Shown here: positions 179-17,103 of the stretch, in pieces
Position numbering within the stretch: position 1 is the stretch's first letter
Layout: every line of letters begins with the position of its first letter
Virus record (IMG/VR): IMGVR_UViG_3300017593_000150
Span: 1 to 64,000 of that record
Strand: one strand, 5' to 3'
Origin: a virus
DNA: 64,000 bases
Made by a program: the position numbers and the translations under genes
Notes under the pieces: generated by a model
Told to the model about the DNA's origin: nothing
Seen by the model: the letters and a program-made list of their open reading frames with translations, nothing else
Database searches by the model: none

Positions 179-667
179 CTAAAGTGTTTTGATTGAGGAC
201 AACTCCTCAGTCAAAGCATCTTCAGTGTTAACAGGCAATATCAAGCTGTAAGCGCCCCAAGAACGCTCAGTTTCATACAGAGTCGTGCACAAAGACGCAA
301 TAGCCTCAAAAGTAGGCTGTGAGAGAGTATTCTTTAACGCAAAGTACATCTTAACGGTACTAAGATAGGTTAAGTATTCAACTGTAGGGTCTATAGGTAG
401 TATTACCGTTCCTTTTTTATCAGTACTAGCATCACTTGTCAAGAACTTGTGATCGAAAAAGTCCTCAACTTCTCTTTTGAGGAGTTGCTTTAACACTGAA
501 AAATCAACGAGCATTCCTCTAAACTCGCGCGGCTCTTGAGTAGTTGTAATCGAAAATTCACCTTTGTACGTGTGTCCATGAACTCGAGAACACGGATGTC
601 CTTCTGGTACAGTCTCGCTCAATCGATGAGCGGCATTAAACGAGAACTTTCTTGCGATTGTTAACAT
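179..667 (-). CDS. queD: 6-carboxy-tetrahydropterin synthase (QueD-like)
   Basis: QueD makes 6-carboxy-5,6,7,8-tetrahydropterin from dihydroneopterin triphosphate, the first dedicated step towards preQ0, the precursor of queuosine and of deazaguanines in phage DNA. Visible family marks, in order: FSFNAAHRL with a zinc histidine, HPCSRVHGH with the catalytic cysteine and the HxH zinc pair, VDFSVLK, DHKFL with the catalytic-site histidine, and PTFEAIA with the substrate-binding glutamate. The length of 162 residues is a little above the usual ~120-140. I chose the ATG at 667 because CAGGAGG sits 7 nt upstream; the longer frame would include that site. Other preQ0 genes (queC, queE, folE) are not in the window. 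Confidence 0.88.
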   Translation of the reverse strand: MLTIARKFSFNAAHRLSETVPEGHPCSRVHGHTYKGEFSITTTQEPREFRGMLVDFSVLKQLLKREVEDFFDHKFLTSDASTDKKGTVILPIDPTVEYLTYLSTVKMYFALKNTLSQPTFEAIASLCTTLYETERSWGAYSLILPVNTEDALTEELSSIKTL

Positions 668-668
668 G

Positions 669-1046
669 TCATACCTCCTGATCAATATTTTCGCCTACTA
701 AGATCCTTACATTAGGATCGCCGTTCCAGCGATAAGGAATGTGATAAGCATCGAGTTTTTCGCATAATTTCTTTCCTACTTCTTTAGTTGACAATCCTAT
801 TGTACCATATTTTTGAGTAACACAAGGTCCATAAGCAATGTACATTCGACTATGATTTCTAAGACTCTCCTCATCTTGCCGAGTCCAAAAGATAGCTCCT
901 TTAACTTCCTTTCCTTTCTCATAAAGTTTTTCAGCTCTACAAGCAAGCTCTGATCCTGCGCAATTTCGACAACACATAAAATTGGCTCGAGCGAGGAATC
1001 CTTCTTTACGCAACTCTTTGAAAACTTCGATCAAACGACTTCTCAT
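669..1046 (-). CDS. Conserved protein resembling DUF6891
   Basis: A 125-residue protein whose ATG follows an AAGGAG site by 8 nt. Its early segment FLARANFMCCRNC contains adjacent cysteines and is followed by a GAIFWTRQDEE stretch and a YIAYG stretch, the pattern I associate with the DUF6891 family of phage and bacterial proteins of unknown function. The assignment is from memory of the family. The stop lies immediately before the queD start, so the two are translated from one message. Confidence 0.5.
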   Translation of the reverse strand: MRSRLIEVFKELRKEGFLARANFMCCRNCAGSELACRAEKLYEKGKEVKGAIFWTRQDEESLRNHSRMYIAYGPCVTQKYGTIGLSTKEVGKKLCEKLDAYHIPYRWNGDPNVRILVGENIDQEV

Positions 1047-2456: not shown

Positions 2457-2550
2457 GTTCCGGCTGAGACCTTGTACCTTTACGACTGCGAAGTGACTAA
2501 GTAGCAAGTGAGCGTAACACTCACTATGAGATAGGTCCTATAGCCGGAAC
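2457..2550 (-). ncRNA. Candidate structured RNA overlapping the RT gene end
   Basis: A perfect 9-bp inverted repeat, GTTCCGGCT (2457-2465) and AGCCGGAAC (2542-2550), closes a 94-nt segment containing the stop codon of the reverse transcriptase. Inside are a GACC/GGTC helix (2468-2471 with 2534-2537), a perfect 6-bp hairpin AGTGAG/CTCACT (2507-2512 with 2520-2525), and a weaker TTGTAC/GTA-G-CAA helix, so the whole can fold as a three-way junction. There is no U-run, so it is not an ordinary terminator. Role unknown. Confidence 0.4.
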
Positions 2551-3486
2551 CGTTTCACTTCGGTACACCATATTTAACCAACCTTTGATACCGTTGATTT
2601 TATGTTTACTTAATGAGATCTTACCTGTCTTATTGTTGTGAAGCATAGCTCGGTACAATCTTCTAACCTTACGCGATATCGTAACTTTGTCAGAATGAAC
2701 TACACAACCCAAAACTCGTAGCTTGCCTCTTCCGACTCTTAACTTAGAAGGATGAAGCTCAAGACTGATTTTGTTTAGGTAACGGTTAATGACCTGACTC
2801 GTTTTTGAGATGGAGATTTTAGCGTCTTTAGGAAAGGACACTAGTATATCATCTGCGTAACGAGTGTATACACCGTGTAGTCTCGCAATTACTTCTGCAA
2901 TTACTAAATCAGTCTGAGAAAGCACGATATTGAACAACCGGCCCGAAGTAGGAGCTCCTTGAGGTAAACCTTTAAAGTAACAATCTCTTATCAACATTTG
3001 TCTAACAGAAAGCGGCACATCGTGCTTTACCAGTACTGAGTCGAGAACTTTTTTTCTGATCGAAGGATAAGCATCCTTTATGTCCAGTCTTAGGAACAAG
3101 TAGTTACCTACATGCTTTTCAAGAGCATCTCGTAAAGATCTGCGTTTCTCGAACGCATAAGCGTGCGTCACTTTAGGAACCAAAATGTAGGTTAGCTTTA
3201 ACCACGCTCGCTGTCTCTCCTTGAGTTGATCTGAAGGAATGTACAGAGTTCTAAAACCACCAGACCTTTTAGGGATCCTAACAGGAGTATACTCAACTTT
3301 AACGTCTTCGCTTAACACATTATGGTACTGTTCATACCAATCTCTCAAAGCGTGCTTACGCACTCCTAACCAAAAAGCAGAAGTGCCTTTCTCTACCAAC
3401 TGTGAGTAAACAAAAGCAAAGGAAGGAGACATCTCAACTTCTTCAACATCGTTAAAGATCGACAACAGTTCGTCCAAGCTGAACAT
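2524..3486 (-). CDS. Reverse transcriptase, retron-like or unclassified phage RT
   Basis: This 320-residue protein is an RNA-directed DNA polymerase with no fused maturase, endonuclease or primase domain. Palm motifs are intact: LDIKDAYPSI (134-143, first catalytic Asp), LPQGAPTSG (174-182), YTRYADDILVS with the YADD box at 210-213, and VLGCVVH at ~258-264, in the place where retrons usually have VTG. The QG motif argues against a diversity-generating RT, which carries an (I/V/L)GxxxSQ box. The C-terminal GIKGWLNMVYR resembles retron and group-II-like thumbs. The retron NAxxH motif is absent (RDALEKH instead). A GAGGA site precedes the ATG. Structured RNA candidates lie on both sides. No obvious toxin-like partner is fused or adjacent. 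Confidence 0.88.
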   Translation of the reverse strand: MFSLDELLSIFNDVEEVEMSPSFAFVYSQLVEKGTSAFWLGVRKHALRDWYEQYHNVLSEDVKVEYTPVRIPKRSGGFRTLYIPSDQLKERQRAWLKLTYILVPKVTHAYAFEKRRSLRDALEKHVGNYLFLRLDIKDAYPSIRKKVLDSVLVKHDVPLSVRQMLIRDCYFKGLPQGAPTSGRLFNIVLSQTDLVIAEVIARLHGVYTRYADDILVSFPKDAKISISKTSQVINRYLNKISLELHPSKLRVGRGKLRVLGCVVHSDKVTISRKVRRLYRAMLHNNKTGKISLSKHKINGIKGWLNMVYRSETVPAIGPIS

Positions 3487-5436: not shown

Positions 5437-5560
5437 GATATATCGCCTCTTTTCTTGTTCTAACTAATCTCTCTTATGATTTACTTTTTTAAATACAGAG
5501 TACTAGGTTCGTTTTCGTTTTTTCAAAATTAAGAGTATCGGATTCACTCTTCAAATTTTT

Positions 5561-5736
5561 AAATGAGAGAGTACTAAAAGTCATTCTCCGATTTTAAATG
5601 AGAGAGTACTAAAAGTCATTCTCCGATTTTTATAAATGAGAGTGTACTAAAGTCATTCTCCTCTTTTAATGAGAGTGTACTAAAGTCATTCTCCTCTTTT
5701 AATGAGAGTGTACTAAAAGTCATTCTCCGATTTTTA
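5561..5736. repeat. Five tandem 33-38-bp iterons
   Basis: Five copies of a core ATGAGAG-A/T-GTACTA, then AAGTCATTCTCC, start at 5563, 5598, 5636, 5669 and 5702 (spacings 35, 38, 33, 33). Each copy is itself an imperfect inverted repeat (GAGAGTGTACT against AGTCATTCTC) and is separated from the next by an A/T-rich linker. A degenerate AGAGTACTAGG half-unit lies just upstream. Iterons next to a ParB-like gene are typical of partition centromeres or replication origins. Confidence 0.75.
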
Positions 5737-5927
5737 AATTTTTTAGATATGGGGTACTTACTCCTGTTATTGTAACTCAACCGCCCCGGGTTCAGTTCCT
5801 AAGGGGGTGTTTTGTGAGGTACTTAACGTAGTTTAGTTCCTTGAGACAACCCCCGGCAGTAAGAGTCTGTCATTTAGATTATTATTTGCTATTCTACGCT
5901 TTGTTTTGCTGGAAATTTTTTCCTTAG

Positions 5928-6012
5928 ACGGGCCATGATGGCCCGTTCCTGAGTTGTAATGATTTCAATAAGTTAGCTGAGAAAATACAGAATTTTTTGT
6001 AGACAAAAATGA
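5928..6012 (-). repeat. Palindrome-containing 85-bp element, copy A (inverted)
   Basis: ACGGGCCAT-G-ATGGCCCGT at 5928-5946 is followed, on the opposite strand, by the shared TTGAAATCATTACAACTC block, a CTAA/CTCAGC block and a small hairpin ATTTTTGT/ACAAAAAT. The arms of that small hairpin differ among copies in a compensating way. Copies B, C and D face the other way, on the far side of the ParB gene. Confidence 0.7.
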
Positions 6013-6058
6013 ATGCAGGTATCTGTCAGATACGACAATTTGCGCGTTTTAGTAGTGT

Positions 6059-6092
6059 TTTTGTCAAGTTTGAAGTATAATTACTGACAAAA
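6059..6092 (+). promoter_or_regulatory. Promoter and operator-like inverted repeat of the ParB gene
   Basis: TATAAT at 6076-6081 lies inside a perfect 8-bp inverted repeat, TTTTGTCA (6059-6066) and TGACAAAA (6085-6092), with an 18-nt spacer. The -35 region is weak. A dyad covering the -10 box suggests autoregulation by the gene product. AAGGAGG follows before the ATG. Confidence 0.5.
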
Positions 6093-6113
6093 CTAACAAA
6101 AAAGGAGGTTATC

Positions 6114-6806
6114 ATGTTAGAAGTTGATCGAAAACAACTCAAACGGATCACAAAGGTTAGTGATAAAGTGTTCTATGCTTACAAACCTCTACAAAGACTA
6201 CTACCTAACCTTACCAAAGCAGATATTGAGGACCTCAGAGAAGTTCTTAAGATGGAAGGATTAACAAAACCTTTGAGAGTAGTACTGTTCAGTGACAAGA
6301 AAGTCAAAAGGTATGTAGTGTTAGATGGTGTACATAGAGTTCAGATCGCAGTGGAGTTAGGTTTGGATTTGGAATTAGAAGAGGTTCAAGTGAGGAATGA
6401 GGAAGAGTTAGTAGAATTAGGATTGAAGCTCAATTTGCAGGAAAAGAGAGGTCGACAGATAAGTAAGAGACAGTTGGTAAAAAGATTACGAAAAGTACAC
6501 TCTGATCTGTCTTTTGAAGAGTTCTGTGTGGTGTTGAAAGAGAAGTATGGTCTGCAGTTAAGTAAAGAGACAATCTCTAAGTATGTGTACTTGAAACAGA
6601 GAGGACAGGTTAAGTCAAGTGAACAGAAGTGTCGTATTAAAAGACTTGCACAGGAACTTGGTTGTAAACCTAAAGAACTGGCAGAGACAGTGTGTACTTT
6701 GGTTAGGACAGTTCATCAAGTTGCTGGACCTCAATGGAAGACAATGTTGATGCAACTGTCAAATCCTGAACTAATAAGAGTTGTATCTACTGTAGTACAG
6801 TCATAG
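6114..6806 (+). CDS. ParB-like DNA-binding protein
   Basis: A 230-residue protein with a ParB/Sulfiredoxin-type N-terminal domain: LREVLKMEGLTKPLRVVLF, then YVVLDGVHRVQIAVELGL containing the DGxHR signature near residues 70-74, then EVQVRNEEELVELGLKLNLQEKRGRQ. The second half has a helix-turn-helix-like stretch (LSKETISKYVYLKQRG) and a C-terminal helical part (LAQELGCKPKELAETV). ParB proteins bind centromere sites and, in many cases, hydrolyse CTP; phage relatives may instead act as regulators. No ParA ATPase is adjacent, so a partition role is not proven. It is the only plus-strand gene in its area and is surrounded by palindromic repeats. AAGGAGG precedes the ATG at ideal spacing. Confidence 0.82.
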   Translation: MLEVDRKQLKRITKVSDKVFYAYKPLQRLLPNLTKADIEDLREVLKMEGLTKPLRVVLFSDKKVKRYVVLDGVHRVQIAVELGLDLELEEVQVRNEEELVELGLKLNLQEKRGRQISKRQLVKRLRKVHSDLSFEEFCVVLKEKYGLQLSKETISKYVYLKQRGQVKSSEQKCRIKRLAQELGCKPKELAETVCTLVRTVHQVAGPQWKTMLMQLSNPELIRVVSTVVQS

Positions 6807-6816
6807 TAACTCAACC

Positions 6817-6839
6817 AAACGGGCCATGATGGCCCGTTT
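6817..6839. terminator. Palindrome copy E just after the ParB gene
   Basis: AAACGGGCCAT-G-ATGGCCCGTTT, 11-bp arms with a single central base, begins 10 bp after the ParB stop codon. Its place and the flanking A and T residues would suit a terminator, but the same palindrome occurs in four other elements with different flanks, so a protein-binding site is equally possible. Confidence 0.5.
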
Positions 6840-6841
6840 GA

Positions 6842-6918
6842 AAAATCTCAATTTTACTATGCAAAACCGCGTGAAAAAGTCAAAAATGTTAGGTTTTACA
6901 TAGTAAAATTGAGATTTT
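6842..6918. repeat. Long inverted repeat, 26 of 27 bp
   Basis: The arms 6842-6868 and 6892-6918 match in 26 of 27 positions and enclose a 23-nt loop. The inner arm sequence ACTATG-C/T-AAAACC recurs further on as GTACATAGATAAAATTT (~6959) and CTACTATGTAAAAC (~7024), so the motif TACTATGTAAAAC is repeated at least four times between 6850 and 7040. No gene is present. Confidence 0.75.
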
Positions 6919-7071
6919 ATTTTTCGGTACTTGTGAAAAAATTAAAGAAGCTCGGTTGTACATAGATAAAATTTCCTCAGTTTCTTATACAAAAACTTGC
7001 TGTTTTGTCTTTTTTGTAAGGTTCTACTATGTAAAACTATAAATTTTAGTAGACTGTTGCGAACCGTACTT

Positions 7072-7154
7072 CATTTTTGTCCTCAAAAATTCCTACTTTT
7101 CTAAGCTAACTCGTTGAAATTATTACAACTCAGACACGGGCCATCATGGCCCGT
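7072..7154 (+). repeat. Palindrome-containing element, copy B
   Basis: Begins with the hairpin ATTTTTG-tcct-CAAAAAT, then TTCCTACTTTTCTAAGCTAAC, then TTGAAATTATTACAACTC and the palindrome ACGGGCCAT-C-ATGGCCCGT at 7136-7154. It lies in the 498-bp gene-free stretch between the ParB gene and the gene at 7305. Confidence 0.7.
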
Positions 7155-7184
7155 TTGGCTCAAAAAATGTATGTTTGTTATTCA

Positions 7185-7306
7185 AACCGAACCAATTTTG
7201 ACTAAATACTTACTTGTCTGATTAGTACCTTTCTCAGAGTATATGACAAGTACAATCGGTACCTAACTAATGTAAGAGTAAGTACTTACTCAAAATCAGT
7301 TCGGTT
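7185..7306. repeat. 29-bp imperfect inverted repeat (25 of 29)
   Basis: Arm 7185-7213 (AACCGAACCAATTTTGAC...) and arm 7278-7306 are inverted copies matching at 25 of 29 positions. The 64 bp between them contain further inverted pieces (ATTAGTACC and GGTACCTAACTAAT), so a cruciform or nested hairpin is possible. The right arm runs into the stop codon of the gene at 7305. Confidence 0.65.
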
Positions 7307-7784
7307 ACTCACTTAACAAATGAGCTACCCATCTATGAAGCACTTCCCATCGTACCTTCATTGTCTTAGCACCACATAGTACCAATCCGTTACCTTCTCT
7401 AATCGCGTTCCAGTCTAGCTCGAACAGATCGTACTTAGGATTGTACTCTCCTGTACGGTCACTGAACTCTGTGATTAGTACTTTCTTATGTTCTGCAGTG
7501 AACCCTAGAGCTTCTAGTATTGTATCCCACACATCATATGGTTGTCCTTGTACTTCGTTGGACAGTCCTTCCGCAGCAATTCTAAGGAACCCTTTAGCAA
7601 TATCTAACCTTATCTTTTCCTTGTGTGTCTTTGGTTGTATTTCCTCTAACTTCTCTCTCAAAGATTGGGCATATACTTTAGGACGGCACCATCTGAACTG
7701 GTCCGTCCAATCCCAATCCCAGTACTTATTGAACTGTCTCTTTCTTTTCTCGTTTAGTATCCTAACCGCGCCTCTCTTGGCCAT
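7305..7784 (-). CDS. Hypothetical basic protein (159 aa)
   Basis: AAAGGAGG precedes the ATG. The N-terminus is strongly basic (MAKRGAVRILNEKRKRQ) followed by a tryptophan-rich patch (YWDWDWTDQFRW), then a helical middle (SLREKLEEIQPKTHKEKIRLDIAKGFL) and a C-terminal part ending EVLHRWVAHLLSE. The basic start and aromatic patch could bind nucleic acid. No family is recognised. Confidence 0.5.
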   Translation of the reverse strand: MAKRGAVRILNEKRKRQFNKYWDWDWTDQFRWCRPKVYAQSLREKLEEIQPKTHKEKIRLDIAKGFLRIAAEGLSNEVQGQPYDVWDTILEALGFTAEHKKVLITEFSDRTGEYNPKYDLFELDWNAIREGNGLVLCGAKTMKVRWEVLHRWVAHLLSE

Positions 7785-7785
7785 A

Positions 7786-7956
7786 CTACCTCCTTTCTTG
7801 TCTCAGTGAACCACTCTTCGTTTCGGTCACAAAGACGGTTTTGATTGTGTTGAAGTCGAGAGAACAGGACCAATTATTGAGTTCTGAAACTGTATTCCAG
7901 TTATGTATGGTATGCCATTCCTTACACGTGTTACACTATACCTGTACTTCTCTCAT
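7786..7956 (-). pseudogene. Small zinc-type gene with an in-frame TAG at codon 7
   Basis: A strong AAAAGGAGG site precedes ATG at 7956. The frame reads MREVQV, then TAG (7936-7938), then CNTCKEWHTIHNW...SGSLRQERR and a TAG stop at 7786-7788, one base before the next start codon. The tight packing and ribosome binding site look like a genuine 56-residue gene. No start codon is available just after the internal TAG. Many other genes in the window end in TAG, so general recoding is unlikely. Confidence 0.45.
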
Positions 7957-7989
7957 TACTCTACCTCCTTTTCCTAAGTGGTTATTAAC

Positions 7990-8019
7990 ATAAGGGACCC
8001 TAACAAAAGGGTCCCTTAT
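7990..8019. promoter_or_regulatory. Perfect 11-bp hairpin between two small genes
   Basis: ATAAGGGACCC (7990-8000) and GGGTCCCTTAT (8009-8019) enclose an 8-nt loop. It lies just after the stop of the gene at 8034-8372 on the minus strand. There is no T-run on either side, so it may stabilise a 3' end or act as an attenuator rather than terminate by itself. Confidence 0.5.
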
Positions 8020-8033
8020 CAACTTAAGGTTCG

Positions 8034-8372
8034 CTATTTCTCATCTCTTACTCTGTAGTATAATTGACCGACTTCCGACCTATACAATGTCTTTCCAACT
8101 TGGGACATTACCTTCTTGTACAGATCGGGCTTCTTCTGTTCCATTAGCTTACATACCACATAGAAGGCCGCTCCTGGTCCTAATGTCTCATACTCTTCTT
8201 GACCTACTTCCTTCTTAATTGTCCGTAAGGTTTCCCTGGCAAAGGATATGTGTCCTAGGCCGGCCGATTGTCCTTTCTTCCTCTGACGGGCTTGGGTCAA
8301 TAAGTCCCTCAAGGATACCTGTTCCTCTCTTTTCTGAAGATCGGGATTGTGGATAACTGTCACTTTTTCCAT
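8034..8372 (-). CDS. Hypothetical protein, paralogue of 9995-10306 (112 aa)
   Basis: Aligns along its full length with the product of 9995-10306: both have NPDL near the start, an LRDLLTQAR or IKTLISQVK helix, LGHISFARETLRTIKKEVG against LGHVSLSRTYIREIKREVG, TLGP, then KKPDL and a final LYYR. GAAAGGAGG precedes the ATG. The fold appears all-helical and basic. The N-terminal helix motif recurs in other genes of this region. The family is not recognised. Confidence 0.55.
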   Translation of the reverse strand: MEKVTVIHNPDLQKREEQVSLRDLLTQARQRKKGQSAGLGHISFARETLRTIKKEVGQEEYETLGPGAAFYVVCKLMEQKKPDLYKKVMSQVGKTLYRSEVGQLYYRVRDEK

Positions 8373-8473
8373 TTTTTCTCCTCCTTTCTTCTTTTTTACC
8401 GGTTAACGTTTAAAATTATAAAAATTTTATTTATAAATAAGAAAATGTAACTCGACCATCACCTCCTTTTCTC

Positions 8474-8848
8474 TTAAAAGGCCACAATCCACCCTTCATG
8501 CTTGAAGACAGCTTTCTTCTCAACTGTACCATCTTCAAGCACCTTTTCTTCAACCATTCTCTTTGTGAAAGAGAAAAGCGGTGTTACTCCTCTACACCGC
8601 AATATTGCCGCCAACGGAGTCATGAAGAACAAGGCTCCTCCAATCATCGCTTTTGTAACTCCGTGTTCAACGGCAATGTCGGCTAGAGCCTGTGCTTTAG
8701 ACATCACTTCTTCATAAGACGGGAGTTCATTAAACGTTAGCAACTCTCTTACCTTCTCTTTATCCTTCGGTTCAATTACTCCTGCTTCAATCTGATCCGA
8801 CGTGGCTGGATGTTGTGTTAGGTTCAAAATTTTCTCCTTTTTTTCCAT
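8474..8848 (-). CDS. Conserved protein, LNLTQHPAT family (124 aa)
   Basis: I recognise this family from plasmids and phages: ILNLTQHPATSDQIEAGVI near the start, RELLTFNELPSYEEV, MIGGALFFMTPLAAILRCRG, and a C-terminal VFKHEGWIV. Function is unknown to me. I place the start at ATG 8848, which has AAAAGGGGGCAG upstream; a longer frame to 8884 would run through that site. The conserved MIGGA..FM segment is hydrophobic but short for a membrane span. Confidence 0.6.
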   Translation of the reverse strand: MEKKEKILNLTQHPATSDQIEAGVIEPKDKEKVRELLTFNELPSYEEVMSKAQALADIAVEHGVTKAMIGGALFFMTPLAAILRCRGVTPLFSFTKRMVEEKVLEDGTVEKKAVFKHEGWIVAF

Positions 8849-8950
8849 TTTTCTGCCCCCTTTTCTCTTTTTTACAGGATTCACGCAAAATTTTAAAAAA
8901 ATTTTAGATAAAATTATATGTAAATAAAAAAATATGACCTAACCTGTCCT

Positions 8951-9034
8951 CATTTTTTGCCTCAAAAAATTCCTACTTTTCTAAGTTAACCTATTGAAAT
9001 CATTACAACTCCTGACCGGGCCATGGTGGCCCGT
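8951..9034 (+). repeat. Palindrome-containing element, copy C
   Basis: Starts with the hairpin ATTTTTT-gcctc-AAAAAAT, followed by TCCTACTTTTCTAAGTTAAC, TTGAAATCATTACAACTC and the palindrome core CGGGCCA-TGG-TGGCCCG (9017-9033). The stretch 8849-9169 holds no gene: it has A/T-rich sequence, this element, and the second copy of TGAGACAACCCCCGGCAG near 9049-9066. Confidence 0.7.
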
Positions 9035-9169
9035 CTGTCACTACTTTCTGAGACAACCCCCGGCAGATGAACCAAACTAACCTTCCCTTTCCTTTAACAA
9101 AGCAGACGGAGGGATCCCAAGGTCCCTTTTAAGAACCCGGTTCTTGTTACCTGACCTAAACCCGTGGTA

Positions 9170-9664
9170 CTACAGTAACTTATCTACCAACCGGGCCAGG
9201 TCATCCAAATCTCCCCAAGGAATCTCTCTAGGATCACCTGGAGAATCGTTCCAATAATACGGATTAACCGGGTATTTCTCCTCTAACTCGAGGAGTTTTA
9301 ATCCGTATCCGGTCTGAATCTCCGGGTCCCTAACCAACTCCGGCCTCTGCTTACGAGGTCTCCCTCTCTTAACCGAGGCCTTCGCTTTAGTTAGGAGATC
9401 CCTTAAGGAGCCTTCTGGAGCAGGAGTGGTCTTCTCTTCTAACCTACGTACCTCTTCTTGATACTGTAGGTTAGCTGACCACTCCGCCATCCATGCTGAT
9501 GGAGAGTGGTACGGAAGCCATTCCCACTCATTCCTCTTAAGTTTCGTGCCCAACAGAGCCTTAGGTTTGGAGGCCTTACGGTCACTTATCACAGGACGGT
9601 GACCACGACCTCTCTTCCGTCGACTCTGAGCACGAGCCTGTTGAAGGAGCTCCTTAATATTCAC
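9170..9664 (-). CDS. Hypothetical basic protein with two DLL-x-x-AK motifs (164 aa)
   Basis: The start is a GTG at 9664, 8 nt after AGGAGG; the frame upstream would place the ribosome binding site inside the gene. Residues ~1-20 (NIKELLQQARAQSRRKRGRG) and ~90-112 (GSLRDLLTKAKASVKRGRPRK) carry the same helix-plus-basic-patch motif. Between them is EWEWLPYHSPSAWMAEWSA, and the C-terminus has PYYWNDSPGDPREIP and an acidic tail. The KRGRPRK patch is AT-hook-like. A frameshifted paralogue is at 4094-4564. No known family. Confidence 0.55.
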   Translation of the reverse strand: MNIKELLQQARAQSRRKRGRGHRPVISDRKASKPKALLGTKLKRNEWEWLPYHSPSAWMAEWSANLQYQEEVRRLEEKTTPAPEGSLRDLLTKAKASVKRGRPRKQRPELVRDPEIQTGYGLKLLELEEKYPVNPYYWNDSPGDPREIPWGDLDDLARLVDKLL

Positions 9665-9693
9665 TTTTCTCACCTCCTTTCTGGGCCGGTTGC

Positions 9694-9811
9694 CCTAAAT
9701 ACCTCAACGACTTTTTTGCCCCCGAAATTTACGAGTTTTTCAGGGTAATCTACTGAAATCATTACAATTCCTGACCGGGCCATCATGGCCCGTGTCGTTA
9801 AGGTATTTAGG
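9694..9811 (+). repeat. Palindrome element copy D inside an 18-bp inverted repeat
   Basis: CCTAAATACCTCAACGAC (9694-9711) and GTCGTTAAGGTATTTAGG (9794-9811) are inverted copies with one mismatch. They enclose a degenerate leading hairpin, ACTGAAATCATTACAATTCC and the palindrome CGGGCCAT-C-ATGGCCCG (9776-9792). This copy alone has such flanks, so the whole could be a small mobile unit or one large hairpin. Confidence 0.7.
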
Positions 9812-14941: not shown

Positions 14942-17077
14942 CTACTCCTCAACTGTAATAATCCTACACTTGTTCTTATCACCACTCCAACGAATTTCCG
15001 GGATTATCTTTTCACGTATTATTCTGTGTTTGTATTTGATTAGGTTGGTTAAGATGTTTTTGATCACTACAGCGGGGTTTGCTGTAGGTTTGTAGCCAAG
15101 TCTAGGTAAGTTGTTCCTATCAGGGTTGTAGTAGTGATCTTCCGCTTCAACTCGTGGATTTTCATAGTGAGCGAGTTTGACAGTGAACCCCAGCTTTTCT
15201 GCCTCCCTCTTTACCAACCGAGCCAGCCAGATGATTTCGTATACATCCTCGAATTGGTTAAACACTCTATATTCTCCTTCCTTGGGAGGGTTCTCAATAG
15301 CAATACGGAAGCATTGCATGGAGTCTTGAATGGGAAGGAACCCTCTCTTCTGCTTCCCTTTTCCATAAACCGTTAGTGGAATTCCTACAATAGCCTGAGC
15401 GCAAGTACGATTTACGAGAGTGCCGAAGCAGTTATGCACCTGGACGTTGTTTGCGACGTACGTGTGATCTTCTTCAACATGGAGGTTGTATACCTTCCCT
15501 TTGTACATCTTACTTGAAACTGATTTTACTCGCACCAGGTTGTCAAACCCTCCTGAATGTAAATAGATAGGACAGCTCAAATCCATTACGCTTATGATCG
15601 AAGTCCCGTTTGCGACTAACCTGTTAAACCTCTCATACTTCTCAAGGAACGGATTAGTTTGAACTTGGAGCCATTCTTTTAGTTCTCGCGCTGTCATCCA
15701 CCGTGTCGTCTCTTTACCGTGCGCTGAAGAGAGCGTCGTTACTAAGATGGGATGACCTGGCGTACAAACAATTTTTCCAAAAGCGCGCTCAAGTTCTATC
15801 TCTATCACTTCCCCAACGTATTCTCGTTCAAACTTCTTAAGCACCTTTCGAAACCGACCCTTATGAGTTAAGACTTTGTCTCCTACCTGAACGTCTTTTA
15901 TAGGTTTTACGCCCTCTAAGCATGTAATTCTGGTGTTAGGAGGAAAACATTCATCTACATCATAGCGAGTAATTAATCTCTCATCTCCTTTCATTTCGGG
16001 GATCTGAATCCCATAAACCACTCCTTGCATGATATCAGTAGATCTAAGCCCCCAAACGTCGCAAGCAAATCTAATGTTGACAGAATCGTGTACCTTCGTA
16101 CAATGATAAAAACTAGGAGGTTGACAAGGAAAAGGAAGAGTATCTTTACGCCCTCTATATTCAACTTCAAAGAATCCCTCAGGAATGTCGAGGTTTGTGA
16201 CGCCATACTCTCCCATTGTGTTTCCTGACCAAGCCGCTTTTCCGTTCCGGCGTACATATATGATTCCTGTAGGAACGGTGCAACAGTACACCTTTCCTGC
16301 ATAAGGAACCCATTCCATATCAGAAGGAGTTACTTTAGTTTGGCTATCTATCTGTGGAATTATGAAGCTAGATTTCTTTGCCACGTGATCAGCCCTCTTT
16401 ATCTGCACAACTCCCGAAGGAGATTCTCTAAAGACCACTCTATGATTGGGAGTAATCACGAAATCGACATCGTCGTTCACAATTCTCAGCATCTCTCCCG
16501 CATACGGATACTCAACTATATGGTTTGGACAGTTGAACGATACTTCTCCTGTTTCTCCGTTGAGACAGCATACTTTGTCAGAGTAATCTAGGTCCTTGAA
16601 CAACTTCCATCCTTTACTTGTTAGCACCTCTGTTTTGTCGTCATAACATCCTAATTTAACTAAGTGGATATCCTTACTCACAGCTTTGATGGCGTACAAA
16701 AGGTTTAAGGTCCCCACTAGGTTGTTGACTTGGGTGAAAGTAGTGTGATGTACATCGATCATTGAGTAAGGTGCAGAAGGCATTTCACCTAGGTGGACAA
16801 TTGCATCTGGTTTGAACTCTTTAATGGAGTTCAACACAAATTTGGGGTTCCTTAAGTCCCCGAAATAGAAAATAGGTTTCCTACCAAACACTTCCTCACA
16901 AGCACGTATCCTCTCTTCCATACTCGCGATGGGTGTCACGGATTGAGATCCCATCTCCTCAACCCACTCTCTTCTCAACATCAAATCACAGCCACCTACT
17001 ACGTAACCCCTAGCAAGTAAGTAAACAGTTAAAGTCCAACCCAAGTAACCATCCATTCCTGCAATATACACTCTCAT
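14942..17077 (-). CDS. UDP-sulfoquinovose synthase-like epimerase with two inteins
   Basis: The joined exteins form an extended short-chain epimerase of the SQD1 type: MRVYIAGMDGYLGWTL (NAD-binding GxxGxxG variant), FGDLRNP, AIVHLGEMPSAPYSM, LVKLG joined to TMGEYGVTNLDIPEG, YHCTKVHD with the catalytic YxxxK, and TRYDVDE joined to CFGTLVNR. SQD1 family members make UDP-sulfoquinovose or related sugar nucleotides; here the product may feed the phage's glycosyltransferases. Two mini-inteins of 143 and 173 residues interrupt conserved segments. Active protein requires both to splice. The start at 17077 follows GGGAGG; two extra codons upstream are not needed. A terminator lies upstream, so a separate promoter is likely. 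Confidence 0.82.
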   Translation of the reverse strand: MRVYIAGMDGYLGWTLTVYLLARGYVVGGCDLMLRREWVEEMGSQSVTPIASMEERIRACEEVFGRKPIFYFGDLRNPKFVLNSIKEFKPDAIVHLGEMPSAPYSMIDVHHTTFTQVNNLVGTLNLLYAIKAVSKDIHLVKLGCYDDKTEVLTSKGWKLFKDLDYSDKVCCLNGETGEVSFNCPNHIVEYPYAGEMLRIVNDDVDFVITPNHRVVFRESPSGVVQIKRADHVAKKSSFIIPQIDSQTKVTPSDMEWVPYAGKVYCCTVPTGIIYVRRNGKAAWSGNTMGEYGVTNLDIPEGFFEVEYRGRKDTLPFPCQPPSFYHCTKVHDSVNIRFACDVWGLRSTDIMQGVVYGIQIPEMKGDERLITRYDVDECFPPNTRITCLEGVKPIKDVQVGDKVLTHKGRFRKVLKKFEREYVGEVIEIELERAFGKIVCTPGHPILVTTLSSAHGKETTRWMTARELKEWLQVQTNPFLEKYERFNRLVANGTSIISVMDLSCPIYLHSGGFDNLVRVKSVSSKMYKGKVYNLHVEEDHTYVANNVQVHNCFGTLVNRTCAQAIVGIPLTVYGKGKQKRGFLPIQDSMQCFRIAIENPPKEGEYRVFNQFEDVYEIIWLARLVKREAEKLGFTVKLAHYENPRVEAEDHYYNPDRNNLPRLGYKPTANPAVVIKNILTNLIKYKHRIIREKIIPEIRWSGDKNKCRIITVEE
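15431..15949 (-). other. Mini-intein 2 in the epimerase (173 aa)
   Basis: Begins CFPPNTRITCLEGVKPI after YDVDE and ends VQVHN before the Cys of CFGTLVNR. Block B is KIVCTPGHPILV with the TxxH motif, block F is GKVYNLHVEEDHTYVANN, and block G is VHN with canonical His-Asn. No endonuclease domain is present. It is not closely similar to intein 1, so the two were probably acquired independently. Confidence 0.88.
16220..16648 (-). other. Mini-intein 1 in the epimerase (143 aa)
   Basis: Begins with Cys after KLG and ends with SGN before the Thr of TMGEYG. Block A is CYDDKTEVLTSKGWKLF, block B is VDFVITPNHRVVF with the TxxH motif, block F is MEWVPYAGKVYCCTVP, and block G ends with AAWSGN. The penultimate residue is Gly instead of the usual His. 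There is no homing endonuclease. The insertion is just before the conserved TMGEYG loop of the enzyme. Confidence 0.85.
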
Positions 17078-17103
17078 CTGCAACCTCCCACTACAATGTA
17101 ACT

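Follow-up and report, generated by a model that had tools for sequence, protein, structure and literature searches.

The stretch of DNA analysed here, referred to as the window, comprises positions 1 to 64,000 of the IMG/VR virus record IMGVR_UViG_3300017593_000150, from a large phage that is uncultured. Between positions 5,561 and 9,811 it contains a ParB-like gene, small genes and five copies of a palindrome, designated P1. The ParB-like gene (6114..6806, + strand) codes for a protein of 230 amino acids with a putative ParB N-terminal domain and helix-turn-helix region. The palindromic 15-mer GGGCCAT-N-ATGGCCC is located at 5930, 6821, 7138, 9018 (one mismatch) and 9777, so that five copies are spread over 3.9 kb. 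The virus sequence covered, about 129 kb in total, consisted of the 107,189-bp record and a 21.8-kb left arm recovered from an overlapping IMG/VR contig (G001). No further copies were found in the rest of the record or in this additional arm. Shuffles of the window gave 0.78 matches to the 15-mer at three mismatches or fewer, with a maximum below 6. When the 5-kb region was shuffled 300 times, the palindrome family of the P1 type reached one copy at most, compared with the four perfect copies observed. The initial annotation had described five intergenic palindromes, and this was borne out, the positions lying a few bases from those first given. Since about half of the surrounding region is non-coding, the intergenic placement is merely mildly notable.

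Four of the palindromes were found to be part of one discrete repeated unit of about 85 bp, here called the cassette (E1 to E4). Cassette E1 (5928..6012, + strand) reads toward the ParB-like gene, with P1 (CGGGCCATGATGGCCCG) at 5929-5945 and a second element, P2 (TTGTAATGATTTCAA), at 5954-5968. Its orientation is opposite to that of all other copies, which are on the - strand: E2 (7071..7154; P1 7137-7153, P2 7114-7128), E3 (8950..9034; P1 9017-9033, P2 8994-9008) upstream of gene 8474-8884, and E4 (9709..9793; P1 9776-9792, P2 9753-9767) upstream of gene 9170-9673. E4 occupies the loop of an 18-bp inverted repeat with its left arm at 9694..9711 and its right arm at 9794..9811. The fifth copy, E5 (6795..6836, - strand), is partial. 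Its P1 (6820-6836) lies in a 25-bp perfect palindrome (6816-6840), and a decayed resemblance to P2 (p = 0.0115) overlaps the end of the ParB-like gene; E5 looks like a decayed cassette.

Starting from P1 (CGGGCCA NNN TGGCCCG), the cassette continues with 8 bases, P2 and an A/T-rich part ending in CAAAAA(A). P2 is TTGTAATNATTTCAA, itself palindromic (TTGTAAT-N-ATTTCAA) with one asymmetric position per arm, and its centre is 24 bp from that of P1. A common 85-bp context with a nearly invariant TTGAAATCATTACAACTC had been reported for four copies; this was confirmed, as TTGAAATCATTACAACTC is present in each with 0-2 changes. The pairwise identity was 0.94 for P1, 0.90 for P2 and about 0.6-0.7 for the remaining cassette. 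The ends are sharp, the identity dropping on either side to about 0.30, which is the random level. Invariant columns amounted to 28 of 32 in P1 and P2 versus 24 of 53 among the other cassette columns (Fisher p = 9e-5).

The 7-bp arms of P1 were unchanged in all five copies, and a strong hairpin of 7-8 bp is formed by P1 in every one of them. The E3 copy carries CCA in place of TGA at the centre, a position that would be the triloop of this hairpin. P2 does not form a stable RNA hairpin, yet it is conserved. Conservation of P2 without a stable fold, together with the unchanged P1 arms, therefore indicates that the sequence was kept and not pairing alone, and the selective conservation of both elements suggests sequence-specific protein binding at P1 and P2. 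A leading hairpin with compensating changes in its arms, which had also been proposed, was not robust, since swapped arms often pair as well as the original ones. In the A/T-rich part the copies preferred different hairpins, E1 did not favour the shared one, and double changes were plausible in E4 only.

Known element types were also considered for the cassette and rejected. No sigma-70-like match was found in any cassette by a scan that does not cover phage-specific promoters. None of six terminator-like matches fell at a palindrome, and the T tract of an intrinsic terminator was absent. Rfam gave no match at the gathering score, the weak ones being unrelated hairpins and iterons.

The conserved P1 hairpin raises the main rival to protein binding, a stem-loop cassette acting at the RNA level like the T4-type PeSL elements. 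The hairpin would then insulate or process transcripts between modules, the repeats would offer homology for shuffling, and the ParB-like protein would not bind. T4-type PeSL and the HGTV-1 motif, which precedes open reading frames (ORFs), are likewise repeated stem-loop cassettes between small phage genes, with a presumed role in regulation and in shuffling (PMC3950731). The present cassette is also discrete, sharp-ended and intergenic, it occurs in a virulent-type phage between small, partly duplicated genes, and the one deviation in P1 falls in the would-be triloop. However, those elements include a promoter or TATA box, and none is recognisable in the present cassette, the -10 boxes lying outside it and phage-specific promoters lying beyond the scan. 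Furthermore, the palindromes do not score as intrinsic terminators, compensatory change in P1 is absent among the five copies, covariation in the A/T hairpins is not robust, and neither the conservation of a P2 that lacks a stable fold nor the lack of an Rfam match speaks for RNA. This explanation is considered somewhat unlikely. If it were right, the cassette would be another case of stem-loop cassettes aiding the reshuffling of small phage genes.

The sharp boundaries, the occurrence in both orientations, the decayed E5 and the close fit of E4 within its inverted repeat, as if inserted there, could alternatively reflect a non-autonomous mobile repeat (REP/MITE-like) with no regulatory role. 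Terminal inverted repeats and clear target-site duplications were not found, though, and there are no other copies in the virus or in the metagenome-assembled genome (MAG) AUK014, which holds the same virus. Selective conservation of P1 and P2 would also be unexpected for decaying repeats, and a mere mobile repeat is regarded as distinctly unlikely. Both the RNA cassette and the mobile repeat are nevertheless close rivals of a reading as protein-binding operators.

A candidate for the binding protein is encoded among the cassettes. Similarity of the 6114-6806 product to ParB, noted at first from the letters, was detected by the TIGR00180 profile over residues 33-129 (E = 2.3e-4, 20.9 bits; curated cut-off 58.45) and weakly by PHROG ParB families (E 0.007-0.08). 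With TIGR00180, this product was the single ParB-like protein found in the virus. A PDB sequence search gave no significant match. The ParA profile PF13614 found nothing in contigs G000 and G001, while the same profile was detected in 14 of 14 controls. A ParA-type Walker motif was not found in the scanned ORFs, and the ParA-binding motif (L/F/I)G(K/R)G(L/F/I), as defined in PMC12704722, was absent from the 230-residue sequence. Judged by these searches, the gene counts as a divergent orphan. On mobile elements, orphan ParBs occur frequently (PMC12704722). All cassette copies are within about 3 kb of the gene, and two of them, E1 and E5, directly flank it. Because it is encoded inside the cluster with two copies flanking it, we infer that the ParB-like protein is the leading candidate ligand of the palindrome.

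Start codons are located downstream of three cassettes (E1, E3 and E4) in their reading direction. A candidate -10 box TATAAT for the ParB-like gene (6076..6081, + strand) lies 63 bp downstream of E1, and another for gene 8474-8884 (8913..8918, - strand) lies about 31 bp downstream of E3; both are consensus matches only. Genes without a cassette are preceded by -10-like boxes as well. The cassette is therefore not the promoter. Its orientation toward genes and its position ahead of -10 boxes suggest that it acts in transcription.

Based on the sequence evidence, we tentatively prefer as a possible explanation that the units are dispersed double-operator cassettes of about 85 bp for the control of small genes, in which P1 is bound by the orphan ParB-like protein. 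The cassettes would have spread by copying from one intergenic space to another in a large phage of virulent type, and together P1 and P2 would serve as a double operator for a dimeric protein of the phage. The bound protein would control transcription of the neighbouring genes from a site some 100-140 bp ahead of the -10 box, and through E1 the ParB-like gene itself would come under cassette control. At P1 the orphan ParB-like protein would act as a site-loaded regulator of the KorB/VirB kind and not as a partition protein, and P2 would be bound by the same protein or by a partner. That a virulent phage uses an orphan ParB-like transcription regulator, possibly a CTP-dependent clamp, which loads on a mobile parS-like double palindrome before small genes, is unlikely as a whole.

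The closest parallel is KorB with its OB sites in plasmid RK2, a ParB-fold regulator with several short palindromic sites across the replicon, some of them distant upstream of promoters; the distance of KorB sites to their promoters is either 4-10 bp or between 45 bp and more than 1 kb (PMC11790492). Like OB, the phage palindrome occurs in several copies near promoters of several genes, with five P1 copies and three cassettes before start codons. In contrast to OB, the phage site has an unrelated sequence and is embedded in an 85-bp cassette, and binding by the phage protein is putative. KorB also pairs with KorA, whereas the phage protein has no recognised partner. VirB and orphan ParB-like regulators likewise resemble ParB, lack a ParA and act on transcription (PMC10770331; PMC12704722). 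VirB, however, relieves H-NS silencing at virS sites, and nothing ties the phage protein to silencing.

Several observations weigh against operators bound by the ParB-like protein. No obvious gene follows E2, which points into a non-coding stretch, or E5, which points into the end of the ParB-like gene. The promoters were called from bare hexamer matches, their -35 boxes are weak, and in the region scan promoter-like sites were present at chance level. The ParB similarity falls under the curated cut-offs, and the AlphaFold model of the protein alone was poor (pLDDT, predicted local distance difference test, 47). Proximity is the sole link between the protein and the palindromes. If the ParB-like protein does bind the cassettes, the system would illustrate in compact form how a member of the ParB family can come to regulate phage genes in the absence of ParA, and how a binding site can spread as a cassette and recruit new genes. 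The cassette itself is real, specific and previously unmatched, although its general kind, dispersed palindromic regulatory sites in phage, is known.

The initial annotation had proposed a multi-site centromere or operator network of a phage-plasmid. An operator network is still the best class, whereas the centromere of a phage-plasmid was not supported, since ParA, a ParA-binding motif, a protelomerase and a tyrosine integrase were not found and the replication genes are of virulent type. As a centromere, the palindromes would be multiple parS-like sites of an extrachromosomal phage-plasmid, with the ParB-like protein serving in partition. Phage N15, whose sites are dispersed, has SopA, a protelomerase and a plasmid prophage. 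A SopA-like ParA and a protelomerase (PF16684, searched in contigs G000 and G001) were not found in the present virus, nor was a tyrosine integrase. The SopB sites of N15 are short inverted repeats in a phage genome that encodes a ParB-family protein. For the scattering of centromere repeats, PMC5016525 cites Ravin and Lane 1999. With that precedent, the ParB-like gene, the nearby iterons and the dispersed palindromes would agree with a centromere, but the cassette far exceeds a simple parS in length, and three of the copies face genes.

The gene content bears on the same point. The virus encodes its own replisome of virulent type, including DNA polymerase A, a gp32-like single-stranded DNA-binding protein, a RecA-like protein, a DnaB-like helicase, SbcC/D-like proteins and a helicase. 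Ribonucleotide reductase, DNA ligase and preQ0-type genes are also encoded. The head proteins matched a PHROG family with the HK97-type fold. Such a gene set would fit a virulent phage better than a phage-plasmid. On the other side, the relative contig G001 (150,430 bp) is a perfect inverted duplication with its centre at G001 75215 (stretch G001:73401-78000), where an AT-rich palindrome lies between 20-bp and 21-bp tandem repeats. The MAG contig G009:C5 terminates within the same tandem repeats. The centre of G001 may represent a hairpin telomere, or it may have arisen as an artefact of assembly, and its telomere-like character makes a linear extrachromosomal form conceivable. As the partner ATPase and plasmid functions are missing, the centromere is poorly supported and is judged improbable.

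The surroundings of the cassettes are rich in other repeats. Upstream of E1 there are five iterons, direct repeats with a length of about 33-35 bp (5557..5739), and multiple long inverted repeats occur across 5.4-10.6 kb. Together with skew changes near 6 and 10 kb, where the gene strand changes too, these repeats could mark an origin region, and the palindromes could be sites for DNA replication, recombination or packaging. This is thought highly improbable, because an initiator protein was not recognised nearby and the cassettes are dispersed between genes, three of them facing genes. A single-copy palindrome, GTATCTG-T-CAGATAC (6019..6033), is present between E1 and the promoter of the ParB-like gene. 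Right after E5, an inverted repeat with 27-bp arms (6842..6918) folds into a very stable hairpin, after which the sequence is T-rich, and is likely the 3' end structure of the ParB-like gene. Two pairs of small genes in the cassette region are duplicated (8034-8372/9995-10306 and 4120-4311/9170-9673), with no function assigned. In addition, TGAGACAACCCCCGGCAG occurs in two identical copies, at 5842-5859 near E1 and at 9049-9066 near E3, in opposite orientation relative to the cassettes.

The search for further copies in the rest of the genome and in relatives gave none beyond the same virus. In IMG/VR, relatives of the ParB-like protein and of its neighbours of 159 and 422 amino acids were found in the same virus only, as was the cassette with relaxed patterns. 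Neither the cassette nor the gene was matched in phage and plasmid collections. The genome collection gave one match, MAG AUK014 (G009), with the same virus at 99.97%. Its cassette copies are confined to viral contigs, except for one palindrome with two mismatches. Among 290 relatives of this MAG, the ParB search returned only matches that were weak, with 27-29% identity and frames 289-317 amino acids long; these are probably ordinary ParBs. Viral contigs with a 78-100% identical capsid protein had neither cassette nor gene; this absence says little because most are fragments or differ in this arm.

In contig G002, a near-identical structural half is joined to a 58-kb arm (79047-137043), over which about 14 perfect TGAAAACGTTTTCA palindromes are scattered. 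The arm was rejected as a parallel system, as it has no ParB relative and its palindrome is different. The TGAAAACGTTTTCA palindromes resemble LacI-family operators, and the arm may belong to another virus joined through a shared gene, of which a 90% identical copy is found at the end.

As to the host, MAG AUK014 (titled bacterium AUK014; virus in contigs C1, C5 and C33) has relatives whose genomes measure about 0.4-0.9 Mb. These sizes hint that the host may belong to a lineage with reduced genomes, but binning is weak evidence.

Elsewhere in the virus, window 2524-3486 (- strand) encodes a reverse transcriptase of the retron type, with the St85 family as its nearest match (E = 3e-46, under the cut-off of the model); no known msr/msd RNA was matched. 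To the left of window position 1, L031:9710-11173 codes for an IscB-like RRXRR/HNH protein of 487 amino acids, preceded by about 1.3 kb without long ORFs, a possible omega RNA with no Rfam match. Inteins were observed in a sugar epimerase (14942-17083, - strand) and in DNA polymerase A (L007:2725-5847, - strand), the latter also carrying an N-terminal uracil-DNA glycosylase (UDG) domain. QueD-, FolE2- and QueC-like genes are located at window 179-685, L007:6348-7172 and L008:876-1640, respectively, and the phage may use them to make 7-deazaguanine DNA modifications.

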